A stretch of 21,560 nucleotides of DNA from a virus. Both the position numbers and the translations under genes were made by a program. Position 1 is the stretch's first letter; every line of letters starts with the position of its first letter. The notes below the pieces were generated by a model, which saw nothing but the letters and a program-made list of their open reading frames with translations, had not been told where the DNA came from and did not search any database. The DNA lies in the IMG/VR virus record IMGVR_UViG_3300030108_003339, positions 16,027 through 37,586 of that record; one strand, given 5' to 3'. Below are positions 12,467-19,665 of the stretch, piece by piece.

Positions 12467-12961
12467 ATGGCAACAAAAAAGCGAGAGTCTAAGCTATCTA
12501 AACTGATTCAAAAAAATTGTAATCAAATACATTTTACCCGCATAGAATCTAGCACAATGAATGGTATTCCTGACTTAAACGGTTGTATAAATGGTAATGG
12601 TTTTTGGATGGAACTAAAATCAGATAAGGTCAAGTATCCGAAGCTATCTAAGTGGCAGATAAGTTGGATAAATAAACATATTAGTTATGGTGGTGTAGTT
12701 ATTATCTGCAATGAGACCCTCTTGCAGAGGTCTATAGAACTATACAGACCGGTGTCCGCTTTCTCGGATCCTCGTTTACTGAAGCCTCGTTTCTCGTTCT
12801 CGAAACCCGTACACTGGCCCTCCTTCCAGGATGCCATAAGGGAGCTGGCAGGACAGAGGAGCTCTCGTTCTCGTTACCTCGTTGAACAATCTCGTTTCTC
12901 GGACAGCATTAGGGACGGCACCGGTAGCCTGTCAGAGCTGGATATGGCACGGGTCTCCTGA
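12467..12961 (+). CDS. PD-(D/E)XK nuclease (VRR-NUC-like) with an unusual C-terminal extension
   Basis: The first ~95 of 164 residues form a compact nuclease of the VRR-NUC/Holliday-resolvase type: NGIPD with catalytic D36, then FWMELKSDK with E49 and K51, then KLSKWQISWINKH and a final strand GGVVIICN. Such phage nucleases are usually about 90-120 residues. From about residue 98 the gene enters a GC-rich array of CTCGTT motifs, and the rest of the protein is serine/arginine-rich (PRFSFSKP, RSSRSRYLVEQSRFSDS). The nuclease core looks intact; the tail seems to be translated repeat DNA. It probably processes branched DNA during recombination or packaging. Confidence 0.75.
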   Translation: MATKKRESKLSKLIQKNCNQIHFTRIESSTMNGIPDLNGCINGNGFWMELKSDKVKYPKLSKWQISWINKHISYGGVVIICNETLLQRSIELYRPVSAFSDPRLLKPRFSFSKPVHWPSFQDAIRELAGQRSSRSRYLVEQSRFSDSIRDGTGSLSELDMARVS

Positions 12962-13002
12962 CCGACGCTCGTTTGTCGTTTCTCGCACTCTCGTTCCTCG
13001 TT
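12763..13002 (+). repeat. CTCGTT motif array in a GC-rich island
   Basis: The exact hexamer CTCGTT occurs ten times on the plus strand in 240 bases (12771, 12786, 12793, 12864, 12870, 12878, 12891, 12968, 12990, 12997), mostly as TCTCGTT or CCTCGTT. Variants CTCGGA, CTCGAA, CTCGCA and GTCGTT fall between them. GC is about 57% over 12781-12960 against about 32% in neighbouring genes. The array spans the nuclease stop codon, so it is not a coding repeat. Spacing is irregular. Extra copies occur at 14180, 15015 and 15034. Confidence 0.75.
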
Positions 13003-13039
13003 TAGGAAGAACCATTGGCAATGGACCGGTAGGAGCACT

Positions 13040-13067
13040 GGAAGGTTGCCTGGCAGAGCAACTTCCC
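13040..13067 (+). other. Hairpin at the end of the GC-rich island
   Basis: GGAAGGTTGC (13040-13049) pairs with GCAACTTCCC (13058-13067) over ten positions with one G-T wobble and one A-C mismatch, around loop CTGGCAGA. It has no T run, so it is a structure or binding site more than a terminator. Confidence 0.4.
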
Positions 13068-13200
13068 TAAGCTAGTTTACGAAAATGAGTTAGTTCCCGT
13101 TTGTCGTTTTAACACTACAACTGATATCTGCTGCTCAAGCTAATGAATACACAGGAGCTGTGTGCTGGTACGGAGCTGTATACATTTTTGCATTTTATTC

Positions 13201-13230
13201 TTGACAATATCCCATCAGGTCTTATATAAC
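13201..13230 (+). promoter_or_regulatory. Strong sigma-70 promoter
   Basis: Consensus TTGACA at 13201-13206 is followed by the overlapping -10 matches TATATA (13223-13228, spacer 16) and TATAAC (13225-13230, spacer 18). It is the best sigma-70 promoter I see in the window. The start site would fall near 13236, exactly where the folded RNA begins. Confidence 0.65.
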
Positions 13231-13235
13231 TTTTC

Positions 13236-13567
13236 TAGATCCAATCAGAGTGTCAAAAGCATTATCGAAAGAGAAGCTACACTCGAGTTCTCTGGTTGGA
13301 TCTGGGGTCAAGTTAAATTAAACTTGAGCTCTGATCCATTGTACTAATACGGCCGATGAGACTGTTCAATGGATCTGGGGTCAAGTAACAGGGCGATGGA
13401 GTAGGGTTATAGAGGTAAGATGCTATAACCAGTAACTGCACTGCTTGACCAGGTTAAGTGAAGAAGGGGACGCCTGGGTAGTAACTTGGCTTAGTCCTAT
13501 GGCTTTCGGGACTATAAACAGACTAGCTGATCGTGGTAGGCATGGTCGCTCTATAAGTCCTACTACC
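13236..13567 (+). ncRNA. Highly structured RNA: ncRNA or long 5' leader
   Basis: Downstream of the promoter at 13201-13230 lie consecutive helices. AGATCCAATCAGAG (13237-13250) pairs with CTCTGGTTGGATCT (13290-13303) with one G-U. TCAAGTT/AACTTGA pair at 13308-13327. A 20-position helix 13322-13341/13367-13386 has two mismatches and one wobble. GGTTATAG/CTATAACC pair at 13405-13430, CCAGG/CCTGG at 13449-13477, TAGTCC/GGACTA at 13492-13514, and GTGGTAGG/CCTACTAC at 13533-13566. GGATCTGGGGTCAAGT occurs twice (13298-13313, 13371-13386), each time closing a stem. AACTTGA (13321-13327) can pair with either of two partners, which suggests alternative folds. No ORF fits. It could be a stand-alone RNA or a regulatory leader of the gene at 13602. 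I could not match it to a known RNA family. Confidence 0.55.
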
Positions 13568-13601: not shown

Positions 13602-13958
13602 ATGATACCAATTAGAAAAAGAGATATCTGCGAACAACAGCTACGCAAGATGTGCAGAGAAACTGCGGACGGAATTACCGACCCGGACAAAGAGCGTTTG
13701 AACGATACCCATAAGTGGATGGAAAGAGTCTACGATATAGAATGGATCACCTCCAGAGACCACAGTTACAAAGGAGCTAGGTTACTAGTTGCTGGAGGCG
13801 GACCTACGATTTGGGTCAACGTCAAGACGGACGAGGTCGAAGGTTATTGGGCCGGGGACCATTGCACAGAGCCATTCCAGGACAACCTTGGCTTACGGGC
13901 ACATCTAGAGCAACTACACAAAGAAAGTCTAGAGCAACTACACAAAGAAAGGAAATAA
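13602..13958 (+). CDS. Conserved marine-phage protein of unknown function (118 aa)
   Basis: Starts at ATG 13602 behind AAAAGGAGAAAC. The core YDIEWITSRDHSYKGARLLV, then GGGPTIWVNVKTDEVEGYWAGD, is a compact beta-rich domain seen in many marine phages and some bacteria; I know of no assigned activity. The C-terminus carries a perfect tandem duplication of 24 bases (13904-13927 and 13928-13951) that repeats LEQLHKES/LEQLHKER, a recent-looking expansion by replication slippage. It is the first gene after the structured RNA, so its expression may depend on that element. Confidence 0.75.
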   Translation: MIPIRKRDICEQQLRKMCRETADGITDPDKERLNDTHKWMERVYDIEWITSRDHSYKGARLLVAGGGPTIWVNVKTDEVEGYWAGDHCTEPFQDNLGLRAHLEQLHKESLEQLHKERK

Positions 13959-14256: not shown

Positions 14257-14307
14257 CCCGTCTCGTGTCGTTCTTAATTACAACTTAGAATGATTCTAAA
14301 CTAGACA
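14257..14307 (+). repeat. Copy A of a ~50-bp direct repeat with an inverted repeat
   Basis: Matches 14368-14417 with one substitution and one inserted A. It contains GTGTCGTT and the 15-base palindrome TTAGAATGATTCTAA (14285-14299). It begins right after the stop of the 39-residue membrane gene. Confidence 0.7.
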
Positions 14308-14367: not shown

Positions 14368-14417
14368 CCCGTATCGTGTCGTTCTTATTACAACTTAGAA
14401 TGATTCTAAACTAGACA
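14368..14417 (+). repeat. Copy B of the ~50-bp direct repeat
   Basis: Second copy, with its TTAGAATGATTCTAA palindrome at 14395-14409. The 60-base spacer between copies is C-rich with a small ACCAG/CTGGT hairpin and has no ORF. The two palindromes are 110 bases apart. They look like paired operators upstream of the promoter-like element at 14479. Confidence 0.7.
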
Positions 14418-15995: not shown

Positions 15996-17480
15996 ATGGC
16001 AAGTCTAGATAATTTTACAGATGACGAACTACGGGCGTTAATTTTAAAAAAACAAATCGAATTTATAAAATTATGTCAGGACAACTTTTTGATCTTTGTT
16101 CGTGCCATGTGGCCAGATTTTATTTGTAGAGATACCACAGATCCTACAAAGTTTGGACATCATCAAATTATTGCAAAAGAATTTGAATCTATAGCAACTG
16201 GAAAGCACAATCGTTTGATTGTAAATATGCCACCAAGACATACTAAGTCTGAGTTTGCATCTTATTTATTTCCAGCTTGGATGATAGGTCGTAATCCTAA
16301 AATGAAACTTATGCAGGTTTCACACAACGCTGAACTTGCAACAAGGTTCGGTAGCAAAGTCAGAAACTTAATGGAGACTGAAGACTACAAAAGTATTTTC
16401 GGAGATGTTAAACTTCGTGAAGATAGTAAGGCTAAGGGACGTTGGGAGACCAATCATGGTGGAGAATACTTTGCAGCGGGGGTAGGCGGTTCTATTACAG
16501 GACGAGGGGCGGATCTTCTTATTATCGATGACCCACATACAGAACAAGATTCTATGTCTGATTCAGCAATGGATCGTGCATTTGATTGGTATAGTTCAGG
16601 ACCCAGACAAAGACTTCAACCAGGTGGTTCTATTGTTGTTGTCATGACAAGATGGGCTACCGATGATTTAACAGGGAGGCTCATCAAATCACAAGCTGAG
16701 CCTAAGTCTGATAAGTGGCGAACAATATCATTCCCCGCCATACTTGAAAGTGGGAATCCTGTCTGGCCAGAATATTGGAAATTAGATGAATTAGAATCTG
16801 TCAAAGCATCTGTCTCAACAAAAAATTGGAATGCACAATATATGCAAGATCCAACATCAGAAGAAGGTGCGATTATTAAAAGAGATTGGTGGCAAGATTG
16901 GGAGTATGAAAAAATTCCTGCACTAAAACATGTTATACAAAGTTATGATACTGCGTTCTCTAAAAAAGAAACCGCAGATTATTCTGCGATTACAACATGG
17001 GGAATATTTCAACCAGCAGAGGGTTATGAGGATTGTATTATTTTATTAGATGCTATGAAAGGCAGATATGATTTTCCTGATTTAAAAAATTTAGCATTAG
17101 AACAATATCAATACTGGCAACCTGAAACCGTTATTATTGAAGCTAAAGCATCTGGTCAACCTTTAATACATGAGTTAAGAAGAGCTGGTATTCCTGTAGT
17201 AGATTATGTTCCAGCTAAAGGTAGAGATAAACACACTAGAATAAACTCCGTGGCTCCAGTGTTTGAATCAGCTATGGTTTATGCCCCTTTACATGAAAAA
17301 TTTGCCCAAGAGGTGATCGAAGAATGTGCTGCCTTTCCTAATGGACAATACGATGACTATGTTGATTCAATGACCCAAGCTGTGATAAGATTCAGACAAG
17401 GTGGATTTATAAGCACTTATACTGATGAATTAGATGCACCAAACTTTAAGATAGAAAAGGAACATAAGTATTATGGCTAA
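15996..17480 (+). CDS. Terminase large subunit
   Basis: A 494-residue DNA packaging motor. The ATPase has a Walker A-type MPPRHTKSEFAS (M78 to about 89, with K84), GGSITGRGADLLIIDDPH with Walker B D178/D179, and coupling motif VVVMTRWATDDL. The C-terminal RNase H-like nuclease shows SYDTAFSK with D318, VIIEAKASG with E382, and YDDYVDSM with D453/D454/D457 for metal binding. TerL cuts concatemeric DNA and pumps it into the prohead with TerS. It is the first clear late gene; its end overlaps the following gene by 8 bases. Confidence 0.93.
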   Translation: MASLDNFTDDELRALILKKQIEFIKLCQDNFLIFVRAMWPDFICRDTTDPTKFGHHQIIAKEFESIATGKHNRLIVNMPPRHTKSEFASYLFPAWMIGRNPKMKLMQVSHNAELATRFGSKVRNLMETEDYKSIFGDVKLREDSKAKGRWETNHGGEYFAAGVGGSITGRGADLLIIDDPHTEQDSMSDSAMDRAFDWYSSGPRQRLQPGGSIVVVMTRWATDDLTGRLIKSQAEPKSDKWRTISFPAILESGNPVWPEYWKLDELESVKASVSTKNWNAQYMQDPTSEEGAIIKRDWWQDWEYEKIPALKHVIQSYDTAFSKKETADYSAITTWGIFQPAEGYEDCIILLDAMKGRYDFPDLKNLALEQYQYWQPETVIIEAKASGQPLIHELRRAGIPVVDYVPAKGRDKHTRINSVAPVFESAMVYAPLHEKFAQEVIEECAAFPNGQYDDYVDSMTQAVIRFRQGGFISTYTDELDAPNFKIEKEHKYYG

Positions 17481-19665
17481 CATGAGTTTTAAAAAATATT
17501 TAGAAGGTAGATCTAAATTTGAAAAACAAAAAAGTAAAGAAAAATTATTAGAAGATTACAAAAAATTTAAACAAAGACAAAAAGTTATGGAGCAAAAAAC
17601 TCAGGCATCATCAGGTAAGATGATAGATAAAGAAAAAAAATCAATAAAAAGATTTAAAAAAGCTTTAGGTAGTAAAATGAAAAAGCCAAAACCTGGCTCT
17701 TATGATTATCAATTACAGGAAACGATGAAACCAAAATACAAAGGTATGTTAAAAGGTGGTCAATCAAAAATTGCTAAAAAAGCTCCACCATTTAATAAAA
17801 TTGATGCAAAAGATTTTGCTGTTCTTAGAGCTGAAAAAGCAAAAGGCAGAGGTAAAGGTTTACAAGACGAGAAAATGAAACCAGGTAAAATGATGAAAGC
17901 TAAAAGAGGTGACTTTATGAAAAGAAGAATGCAACTTGCAGGACTTGGAAGTGGTAAAGTAAAAGGCATGGGTCAAGCAACTGGTTACAAAAAATATTTA
18001 AAAGGATTAAAAAAAATAAGTGAAGAGGGAAAAATGAAAAGGATGAAAAGTCCAAAATTTAGTCCCGCAAACCCTGATGCACCTTTCGGTGTTAAAGCTT
18101 TAGGTTTCAAAAGTGAAGATGCATACTATAACAAAATGATGAAAGACCCAAAATTTGCAAAAATAGTTAGTAAAACAAGAGGTGACAAAAGTTTACCAGC
18201 AGCTGTTGATAATAGATTGAGAGAATTACGTGCAAGTGCTAGACTTGATAAGATAAATAAAAATCCTAAAACAAAAAAAATGCTTGAAAAGGGTATAAGA
18301 TTTGGAACTAAAGCAGCAAAAGCCACAAGAATAGGTAAGATCGCAGCCGGTGTTGCAGGAGCAGCATTATTAGCTAAAGCTGGTTTAGAAAAATTATACG
18401 AGAAAAGAACTGGTAAAAGAGCACCCACAAAAAGACCTAAGAGAAAAATGGGTGGTGGTATGATGAAGAAGCCTATTATGGCATCATCAGGATTACTCGC
18501 AGGAATAAGTGGCGTTAAAAAAGCTGCAAATATAATAGATGAAAAGAGAGAACAAAGAATACAAAAAAAAGTGGATAGAGATGCCATGATTAATAAAGCT
18601 AGAAAAGCAATCCAGGGTAAAATGACTATAGGAGATAAAACACTAGTTTATTCATTAGCTCAATCTATGAAAAATAAGGACAGACTTACTCAAAAAGACT
18701 TAGAACTAGCTGCAGATATTGTAAAAAAGATACCACGAACAATGCCAAAAGCTAAGATAAGAGATGATATAGGTATACAAAAAATCAAAGAGCTTATAAA
18801 AAACAGACCTCGAAACAAAATGGGTGGTGGTATGATGAAGAAACCTATGATGGCTAATGTTGGAATTTTGGCAGGAAGAGAAGGTAAGAAAAAACTTATG
18901 GAACAAAGAGCCAAAGATAGAAAAACAGATAGAGATAAAGCAAATAAATCTCTATCACAAATGCAAGTTCAAAAAGGAAGAGAAAAAGCTAAAAAAGTTT
19001 TAGGAAAAATGAGAAATTTTAAAAATCAAGCAACAGGTTTTGTAAAAGAAATAGGTGGTTTTAAAAAAGGCAAAATGATGATGGGTGGCGGATTAACAGA
19101 AGCTACTAAAAGATTAAAAGCTCAAGGCAAAATGGGCGGTGGCATGATGCAACGACCTATGATGGCAAGCGTGGGTAAACTTGCAAAGAAAAAAGGTTTA
19201 CCAATTCCATTAATAAAAAATACAAAATTCAATTTTAAAAGTGTGGGAAAGTTTCCATATGTCAAAGTTAACAAAAAAATGGGCGGTGGCATGATGCAAC
19301 GACCTATGATGGCTATGGGTTATGACACAGGAGATTTAGCATCAGCAGAAAATGTATATAAAAAAATAAAAGCTAAAGACAGAAAAAAAGCTACAAGAGA
19401 AGCTTTAGAAAGAATGGAAGAAAAAAGAAAAAAAAGAAAAAAAGAATCACGAGACCCAATAGGTCCAGGCAATTTTAGTGGTAGAGGTACGAAACCACCA
19501 AGACCAGCACCAAGACCAGGCGTAGGTATTCCAAATGTTCCTGGAAGATTAGGAGGACAACCAGTAATACCAACACCTAAATTAGCAGTTCCACAAATGT
19601 CTACTGGTAGTTCAGTAACCGTTAAAGTTAAACTAGGTAGAAATAAACCTACTAAATTATTTTAG
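17473..19665 (+). CDS. Lys-rich protein with KMGGGMM repeats, probably virion-associated
   Basis: A 730-residue, very basic, low-complexity protein that overlaps TerL by 8 bases. It carries four copies of KMGGGMM(K/Q)(K/R)P(I/M)MA near residues 325, 449, 553 and 602, plus a degenerate MMMGGGL near 535. Spacers between them are basic helices. One hydrophobic stretch (IAAGVAGAALLAKAG, about residues 289-303) could insert in a membrane. The C-terminus is proline-rich (PPRPAPRPGVGIPNVPGR). Similar Gly/Met-repeat proteins lie between terminase and portal genes in marine phages. An internal or ejected virion protein is likely, but not shown. Confidence 0.7.
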   Translation: MANMSFKKYLEGRSKFEKQKSKEKLLEDYKKFKQRQKVMEQKTQASSGKMIDKEKKSIKRFKKALGSKMKKPKPGSYDYQLQETMKPKYKGMLKGGQSKIAKKAPPFNKIDAKDFAVLRAEKAKGRGKGLQDEKMKPGKMMKAKRGDFMKRRMQLAGLGSGKVKGMGQATGYKKYLKGLKKISEEGKMKRMKSPKFSPANPDAPFGVKALGFKSEDAYYNKMMKDPKFAKIVSKTRGDKSLPAAVDNRLRELRASARLDKINKNPKTKKMLEKGIRFGTKAAKATRIGKIAAGVAGAALLAKAGLEKLYEKRTGKRAPTKRPKRKMGGGMMKKPIMASSGLLAGISGVKKAANIIDEKREQRIQKKVDRDAMINKARKAIQGKMTIGDKTLVYSLAQSMKNKDRLTQKDLELAADIVKKIPRTMPKAKIRDDIGIQKIKELIKNRPRNKMGGGMMKKPMMANVGILAGREGKKKLMEQRAKDRKTDRDKANKSLSQMQVQKGREKAKKVLGKMRNFKNQATGFVKEIGGFKKGKMMMGGGLTEATKRLKAQGKMGGGMMQRPMMASVGKLAKKKGLPIPLIKNTKFNFKSVGKFPYVKVNKKMGGGMMQRPMMAMGYDTGDLASAENVYKKIKAKDRKKATREALERMEEKRKKRKKESRDPIGPGNFSGRGTKPPRPAPRPGVGIPNVPGRLGGQPVIPTPKLAVPQMSTGSSVTVKVKLGRNKPTKLF
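19129..19166 (+). repeat. 38-bp exact repeat inside the repeat protein gene, copy 1
   Basis: Encodes the third KMGGGMMQRPMMA motif. It is identical at the DNA level to 19276-19313, including synonymous positions, whereas motifs one and two use other codons. This points to recent duplication or gene conversion. Confidence 0.75.
19276..19313 (+). repeat. 38-bp exact repeat inside the repeat protein gene, copy 2
   Basis: Encodes the fourth motif, identical in all 38 bases to 19129-19166; the copies are 147 bases apart, keeping frame. Confidence 0.75.

Follow-up and report, generated by a model that had tools for sequence, protein, structure and literature searches.

The HIV-1 dimerisation initiation site is a palindromic hexamer that forms a kissing interaction on the viral genomic RNA, with few palindromes in use. 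GOLLD and ROOL, which are large and ornate RNAs of phages, assemble into multimeric cages made of RNA only, and OLE is a dimeric ornate RNA whose symmetric L9.3 kissing loop switches between GGCC, GAUC and AGCU (PMC12286853). Loop changes that preserve a palindrome (GGCC to GAUC or AGCU) have been taken to show that OLE and GOLLD form symmetric kissing loops between molecules (PMC12286853).

How do the arrays described here compare with these RNAs? The first was found in a 21,560-nt stretch of viral DNA, the window (positions 16,027 to 37,586 of IMG/VR virus record IMGVR_UViG_3300030108_003339); positions below are those of the window unless a relative is named. Like GOLLD and ROOL, the arrays are phage-encoded, non-coding and highly structured, have no assigned function, and have symmetric loops that we infer from palindrome changes. 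Whereas GOLLD and ROOL have a defined consensus fold with few switching loops, the arrays have no fixed overall architecture, exchangeable modules and a very large loop repertoire. OLE differs from them in sequence and fold; it is not modular, being one fixed RNA with a defined dimer. With the HIV-1 site the arrays share a purine-flanked self-complementary hexamer in a hairpin loop, but they have many modules and 62 palindromes.

An earlier, sequence-only reading of the window had recognised no known RNA family, and Rfam searches agree: the window has no match at gathering score, the array has none at E ≤ 10, and 20 related loci of the same stem type (dialect 1, below) have none either, the GOLLD, ROOL and OLE models included. 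Rfam covers none of the modules. A Flavobacterium-1 domain (RF02976) does lie behind the modules of pelagiphage HTVC027P (90.2 bits) and of one related contig (L226, 102.8 bits), in the same non-coding region and on the same strand. The Rfam model of this motif, which has no assigned function, spans 121 nt, includes no modules and has no match in the window. Type III toxin-antitoxin repeats and CRISPR or TIGR arrays are likewise tandem repeats with variable parts; unlike theirs, the variable parts of the arrays are folded, are common to several phages and are exchanged as units. A CRISPR or TIGR array was rejected because the variable parts are folded and covarying and turn up again in other contigs, and because no effector gene is among the recurrent array neighbours; no cas, tas or toxin gene was recognised there. 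A tRNA or tmRNA array was rejected for want of an ARAGORN match. So was an integron attC array, since on reading the repeats lack the R'/R'' core (GTTRRRY/RYYYAAC) and the variable parts of 25-90 bases are non-coding. Resemblances to RNase P, a group I intron and the hammerhead were matches by eye only and were dropped. We found no paper describing these arrays in the open-access literature, although absence there is no proof of novelty. The pelagiphage literature searched does not mention non-coding RNA, the HTVC027P transcriptome paper makes no mention of non-coding or intergenic transcripts (PMC12753301), and the array RNA is without annotation in the phage records examined.

The array in the window

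The sequence-only reading had placed a promoter-like element, two hairpins and a repeated 16-mer correctly; exact copies of the 16-mer, GGATCTGGGGTCAAGT, lie at 13298 and 13371. The element is a sigma-70-like promoter on the plus strand (13201..13230), with TTGACA at 13201-13206 and a −10 box that is either TATATA (13223-13228, spacer 16) or TATAAC (13225-13230, spacer 18). It had been called a consensus promoter; both boxes are in place, but the −10 hexamer is imperfect, for which reason a generic sigma-70 scan leaves the promoter at 13201 out of its list. The promoter is conserved in a near relative (L122), and the RNA behind it differs there.

All parts of the array lie on the plus strand. 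The first, module x1 (13236..13313), consists of a truncated left stem (AGATCC), the module and the first GGATCTGGGGTCAAGT (13298-13313). Its hairpin begins at 13236, as had been proposed, with a helix of 15 bp in the minimum free energy (MFE) fold rather than 14 (13236-13250 with 13290-13304); covariation across 174 distinct units backs this type of stem. The self-complementary octamer ACTCGAGT (13281..13288) in x1 is a candidate kissing loop. No homologue of x1 was found among the sampled arrays. A short linker follows (13314..13328), where pairing is possible between TCAAGT in the first repeat and ACTTGA in the left repeat that comes next. Module x2 (13323..13386) is made up of CTTGAGCTCTGATCC (13323-13337), ATTGTACTAATACGGCCGATGAGACTGTTCAAT (13338-13370) and the second GGATCTGGGGTCAAGT (13371-13386), and its hairpin pairs 13323-13341 with 13367-13385 around an enclosed 13342-13366. 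This stem runs over about 19-20 positions with one G.G and one U.U mismatch, as the 20 positions and two mismatches of the earlier description imply. The loop palindrome of x2 is CGGCCG (13350..13355), replaced by CGCGCG in four relatives (L302, L343, L345, L346); the module is common to 11 arrays including the window's, several of which use the other stem dialect.

Module y (13387..13450) has the stem GGTTATAG...CTATAACC and is closed by pairing of GGTCAAGT (13379-13386) with CTTGACC (13444-13450). A second y-type module, GGTTAAGT-GAAGAAGGGGACGCCTGGGTAGTA-ACTTGGC (13452..13490), is identical at 36 of 37 positions to a y module of another contig (L044). The 3' structured part (13491..13567), with an AGTCC...GGACT hairpin and the pairing GTGGTAG...CTACTAC, rests on MFE folding only, and no homologue of it was found among related arrays. 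The region as a whole has a folding z-score of −2.78, with 0 of 100 shuffles as stable. A terminator scan of the region found none, so the 3' end of the transcript is not fixed. Open reading frames overlap the region; the near relative, whose sequence differs, does not keep them. Downstream lies a gene for a 118-aa protein of unassigned family (13602..13958, plus strand), and about 41 related array loci have a homologue of it in the equivalent downstream position and orientation.

Module exchange at one locus

Neither the exchange of modules nor the switching of palindromic loops is visible from the window alone; both come from its relatives. Related arrays occur in more than 200 contigs of marine viruses and in one single-cell assembly of SAR11; the cultured pelagiphage HTVC027P has one too, in which the stem is changed. 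The 16-mer GGATCTGGGGTCAAGT is exact in at least 119 IMG/VR stretches, all examined ones being arrays of the same kind. The contigs are metagenomic and some are near-identical, and these and the following counts are illustrative lower bounds rather than independent observations.

The arrays use two stem dialects. In dialect 1 the conserved stem halves are CTTGAGCCCTGATCC...GGATCTGGGGTCAAGT and in dialect 2 CTGATCCCTGATC...GATCTGGGATCAG, and in both they enclose exchangeable modules of 25-90 bases, which we collected by means of anchors in the shared stems. A dialect-1 array has the form AACTTGAGCCCTGATCC-x-GGATCTGGGGTCAAGT-y-ACTTGGCC, or CTTGACC at the end, with x and y freely combined, and one y is found behind different x in different contigs. 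Dialect 2 (CTGATCCCTGATC-x-GATCTGGGATCAG) occurs in at least 120 stretches, and the window's x module also occurs within it (L260, L302, L333, L336). Four dialect-2 contigs (L205, L219, L258, L304) have a more constant RNA core, TGTTGTAGCTGTGGGAATTGACCCACTATAGTTCAGGTCGCGAT...GGCCCGGTAAGGTTGCAAACTGAAAGGCCCGCCTGCGCAGGACAACA, between modules, which looks like a separate unnamed domain.

The 566 sampled modules fall into 413 scaffold clusters, from which the Chao1 estimate is about 1300 scaffolds, and 48 of the 88 multi-member clusters are not confined to a single position or dialect. The locus is hypervariable, and phages that are otherwise near-identical carry different RNAs: in the near relative, the DNA on both sides of the array, promoter included, is near-identical to the window's, and the RNA between is a different one.

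The arrays form one syntenic locus, in most cases near TerS and TerL in a single group of phages, because the same neighbours recur in array contigs: among 300 of them TerS is present in 206, GP88 in 216, a VRR-NUC-like nuclease in 184, TerL in 144 and a nearby divergent gene of no known family in 178. In each phage genome that was searched as a whole record, the arrays are confined to one place. Their proximity to the terminase genes deserves mention but proves nothing; it is the only feature that points towards a packaging RNA of the phi29 pRNA type, which acts on the terminase motor. By terminase, the nearest cultured relatives are the pelagiphages HTVC023P and HTVC027P. In HTVC027P a dialect-2 array, on the minus strand of record MN698241 at about 17,680-18,220, is read from its own TTGACA...TATATATT promoter. 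The gene for gp35, a 333-aa protein of no known family (L146 6641-7639), is transcribed divergently from that promoter, and its relatives are the divergent gene of the 178 contigs. Phage records gave no BLAST match to the 1.2-kb region or to one unit by itself, though HTVC027P has the other dialect. When bacterial genomes were searched with gaps allowed, one contig came up; it is of phage origin, belongs to the assembly of an uncultured Pelagibacteraceae cell and has the array followed by a homologue of the 13602 gene. SAR11 are the ocean's most abundant bacteria, and they and their phages are among the most numerous marine life forms. SAR11 cells infected by pelagiphages lose detectable ribosomes (PMC11066056).

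A large module pool exchanged at one locus also fits a different role, that of a monomeric decoy or antitoxin-like RNA whose modules bind, or protect against, a host nuclease or defence protein. Its diversity would then reflect an arms race, and the palindromes would be secondary. Some elements, for example GGCTCCTGGGTCATGAGCCATGATAATAACTGACCC (L121 6020-6080, L123, L124, L090), read as H-type pseudoknots, which occur in type III antitoxin RNAs. However, a decoy does not predict the change of one palindromic loop to another described below, and no recurrent array neighbour is a known RNA binder, a recognisable toxin or an RNA-binding partner; we consider this explanation unlikely. The GGCTCCTGGGTCATGAGCCATGATAATAACTGACCC element of one of these contigs (L090) is a compensated version, CCTGAG/CTCAGG.

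Covarying stems and transcription

Covariation in dialect 1 was computed directly from 174 distinct units, with modules at least 90% alike removed. The module-closing positions 6-10 are Watson-Crick pairs in 84, 93, 93, 69 and 72% of units, against 57, 36, 37, 29 and 28% after shuffling. Many pair types contribute at positions not covered by the anchors, and when only the upper stem is used as anchor, covariation between dialects is seen in the lower stem (position 5: 98% vs 50%). Homologues thus show the compensatory changes that the predicted stems call for; the window's y module has a homologue (L176) in which GGTTATAG/CTATAACC has become GGTTATGG/CCATAACC, a compensated double change. U.G is frequent in the dialect-1 stems, where two positions have 26 and 36 such pairs, and A.C is rare. 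Because G-U is frequent and A-C hardly occurs in the covarying stems, the plus strand is the one that folds. The y modules are also closed by covarying pairs (66% vs 27%), which extend GGUCAAG/CUUGRCC. As the x-stem and y-closing pairs both covary, the right repeat has real partners on both sides.

ACTTGA (13322) can indeed pair with either TCAAGT copy, as had been noticed from the sequence, and this raises the question of a switch. The mutually exclusive folds proposed on this basis are plausible in the window's dialect, in which the GGUCAAGU strand covaries with partners on both sides. They are not general, since the second dialect closes the next module with its own stem, and the upper x stem can also coexist with the y stem and stack on it. 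A structured 5' leader, in which two TCAAGT copies compete for ACTTGA in a riboswitch-like control of the genes from 13602, would suit a right repeat that pairs with either side. The gene follows the RNA directly in the window and in the near relative (L122), and the promoter scan lists nothing between the array and the start codon. Most relatives examined, however, have a region of CAAGC repeats and a separate TTGACA promoter between the array and the next gene, and the downstream genes differ between dialects. There is no Rfam riboswitch match, and a conserved riboswitch core is absent because modules are exchanged. A leader for these genes, as the sequence-only reading had suggested, is accordingly possible in the window but not the general rule, and as an explanation of the RNA it is improbable. 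We rejected a riboswitch or cis-leader class on the same grounds, the exchange of modules and the intervening promoters of relatives; the position in the window alone would fit.

Promoters are also enriched upstream of the arrays. The pattern TTGAC[AT]-N15-19-TAnnAT, in matching orientation and at most 250 nt upstream of the first module, is present at 164 of 411 arrays (40%); at two control distances the counts were 9 of 379 and 2 of 336 (1-2%). Together with the stem covariation in homologues and the lack of an Rfam match in the window, this enrichment upholds the suggestion of an undescribed phage non-coding RNA. The arrays probably represent a non-coding RNA of pelagiphages, made from the plus strand through the TTGACA promoter by host RNA polymerase; because the promoter is sigma-70-like, the host enzyme would be expected to transcribe it during infection.

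Self-complementary loops

Palindromic hexamers are about twice as common in modules as expected (549 observed vs 282±15). Mirror repeats in modules are at expectation (250 vs 255±15), flanking DNA has no enrichment of palindromes (200 vs 235±15), and a shifted-complement control is moderately raised too (374 vs 280±18). A palindromic hexamer is present in 130 of 174 modules (expected 75.8±5.3) and in 177 of 283 (106.9±7.8), with only mild enrichment in y modules (69 of 112, expected 52.6±5.1). There is none in the window's y, m5 and 3' parts or in the x module of the near relative. Overall, 62 of the 64 possible palindromic hexamers occur in modules, and they are predicted to be more unpaired (0.616 vs 0.488, p=4e-14).

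These loops change in a coordinated way. Homologous modules swap one palindrome for another while the flanks stay fixed. Counted as ordered pairs, changed centres that are still perfect palindromes stand to those that are not as 46:13, 46:21 and 16:12 at 2, 4 and 6 differences, the numbers that allow a palindrome to be kept; by a position-symmetry calculation, random change would keep the palindrome in about 7, 2 and 4%. In the same ordered pairs, 106 of 214 changed palindromic centres lose the palindrome, and only 23 of 1268 changed non-palindromic centres become one. Scans with an unconstrained N6 give the same picture; matches to the patterns that lay in unrelated sequence and lacked the stems were excluded on inspection. 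All 11 matches to the x2 scaffold are palindromic (CGGCCG or CGCGCG), as are 30 of 31 matches to a scaffold F1, AGTCAGGAATAAT-N6-TGATG, among which five palindromes occur; the remaining match, CTCGGG, is self-complementary if two G.U pairs are allowed.

Might the palindromes instead act in DNA? As a DNA-level element, the array would provide single-stranded hairpins or dyads for recombination, replication or packaging, and the palindromes would be sites for proteins or enzymes, which is in keeping with a position in the TerS-TerL neighbourhood and with mosaic exchange at short shared sequences. Yet only one strand is folded, a promoter stands in matching orientation at 40% of arrays, the palindromes are found more often in predicted loops, and no single DNA-binding protein could read 62 of 64 palindromes. 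Of the explanations considered, this is the least probable.

What, then, would the loops pair with? Modules of one array seldom share a palindrome (15 of 202 pairs, or 7.4%, vs a 4.3% background), for which reason pairing between modules within one molecule was rejected. A six-base palindrome is unable to pair with itself inside one loop. Since self-pairing within a loop is impossible and sharing within an array is rare, pairing between the loops of two RNA copies is the remaining simple explanation. In a comparison of sequences only, the arrays show the palindrome-preserving change that served as criterion for GOLLD, ROOL and OLE (PMC12286853).

We therefore favour, as likely though by no means certain, a hypervariable phage RNA of modular build, copies of which recognise one another and form multimers through symmetric kissing loops. 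Transcribed during infection, the RNA would fold into a string of autonomous hairpin modules built on a few shared stem sequences, and recombination at these stems, to judge from the mosaic, would swap modules between phages. Many modules would present a self-complementary loop of 6-8 bases that pairs with its counterpart on a second copy of the RNA. A homo-multimer may be held together in this way by several different symmetric kissing loops in each molecule, with a self-specificity that changes often. Candidate roles for such a multimer are a scaffold or cage, by analogy with ROOL and GOLLD, and lineage-specific self-recognition. In the last case, which we regard as possible rather than probable, modules with hypervariable homotypic loops would act in combination to give a lineage-specific multimer, orthogonal to the RNAs of competing phages.

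What are the implications if the loops pair in this way? First, the arrays would be a new kind of self-recognising viral RNA. Second, they would be natural RNA parts that are swapped between genomes like protein domains. Third, they would embody a self-recognition code that evolves through coordinated palindrome changes. Fourth, they would offer a ready-made library of orthogonal kissing loops, on an estimated more than 1000 scaffolds. HTVC027P, which grows on strain HTCC1062, carries a version, and the purpose of self-assembling phage RNAs would thus be testable outside GOLLD and ROOL.

The DNA beside the arrays has repeats of its own. Dense CTCGTT/TCTCG repeats (12760-13105) run through the 3' end of the gene for the VRR-NUC-like nuclease (12467-12961) and past its end, and relatives have CAAGC repeats in the matching place, which also extend the C-terminus of the nuclease (L121 6823-7215). 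The dyad CTTAGAATGATTCTAAA occurs twice downstream of the gene set (14284-14300 and 14394-14410), and the closely similar TTTAGAATNATTCTAAA, perhaps an operator, follows the arrays of many relatives. In relatives, (CAAGC)n tracts beside the arrays run directly into TTGACA-N17-TAGGAT promoters (CAAGCTTGACA), so that the repeat itself supplies the −35 box.
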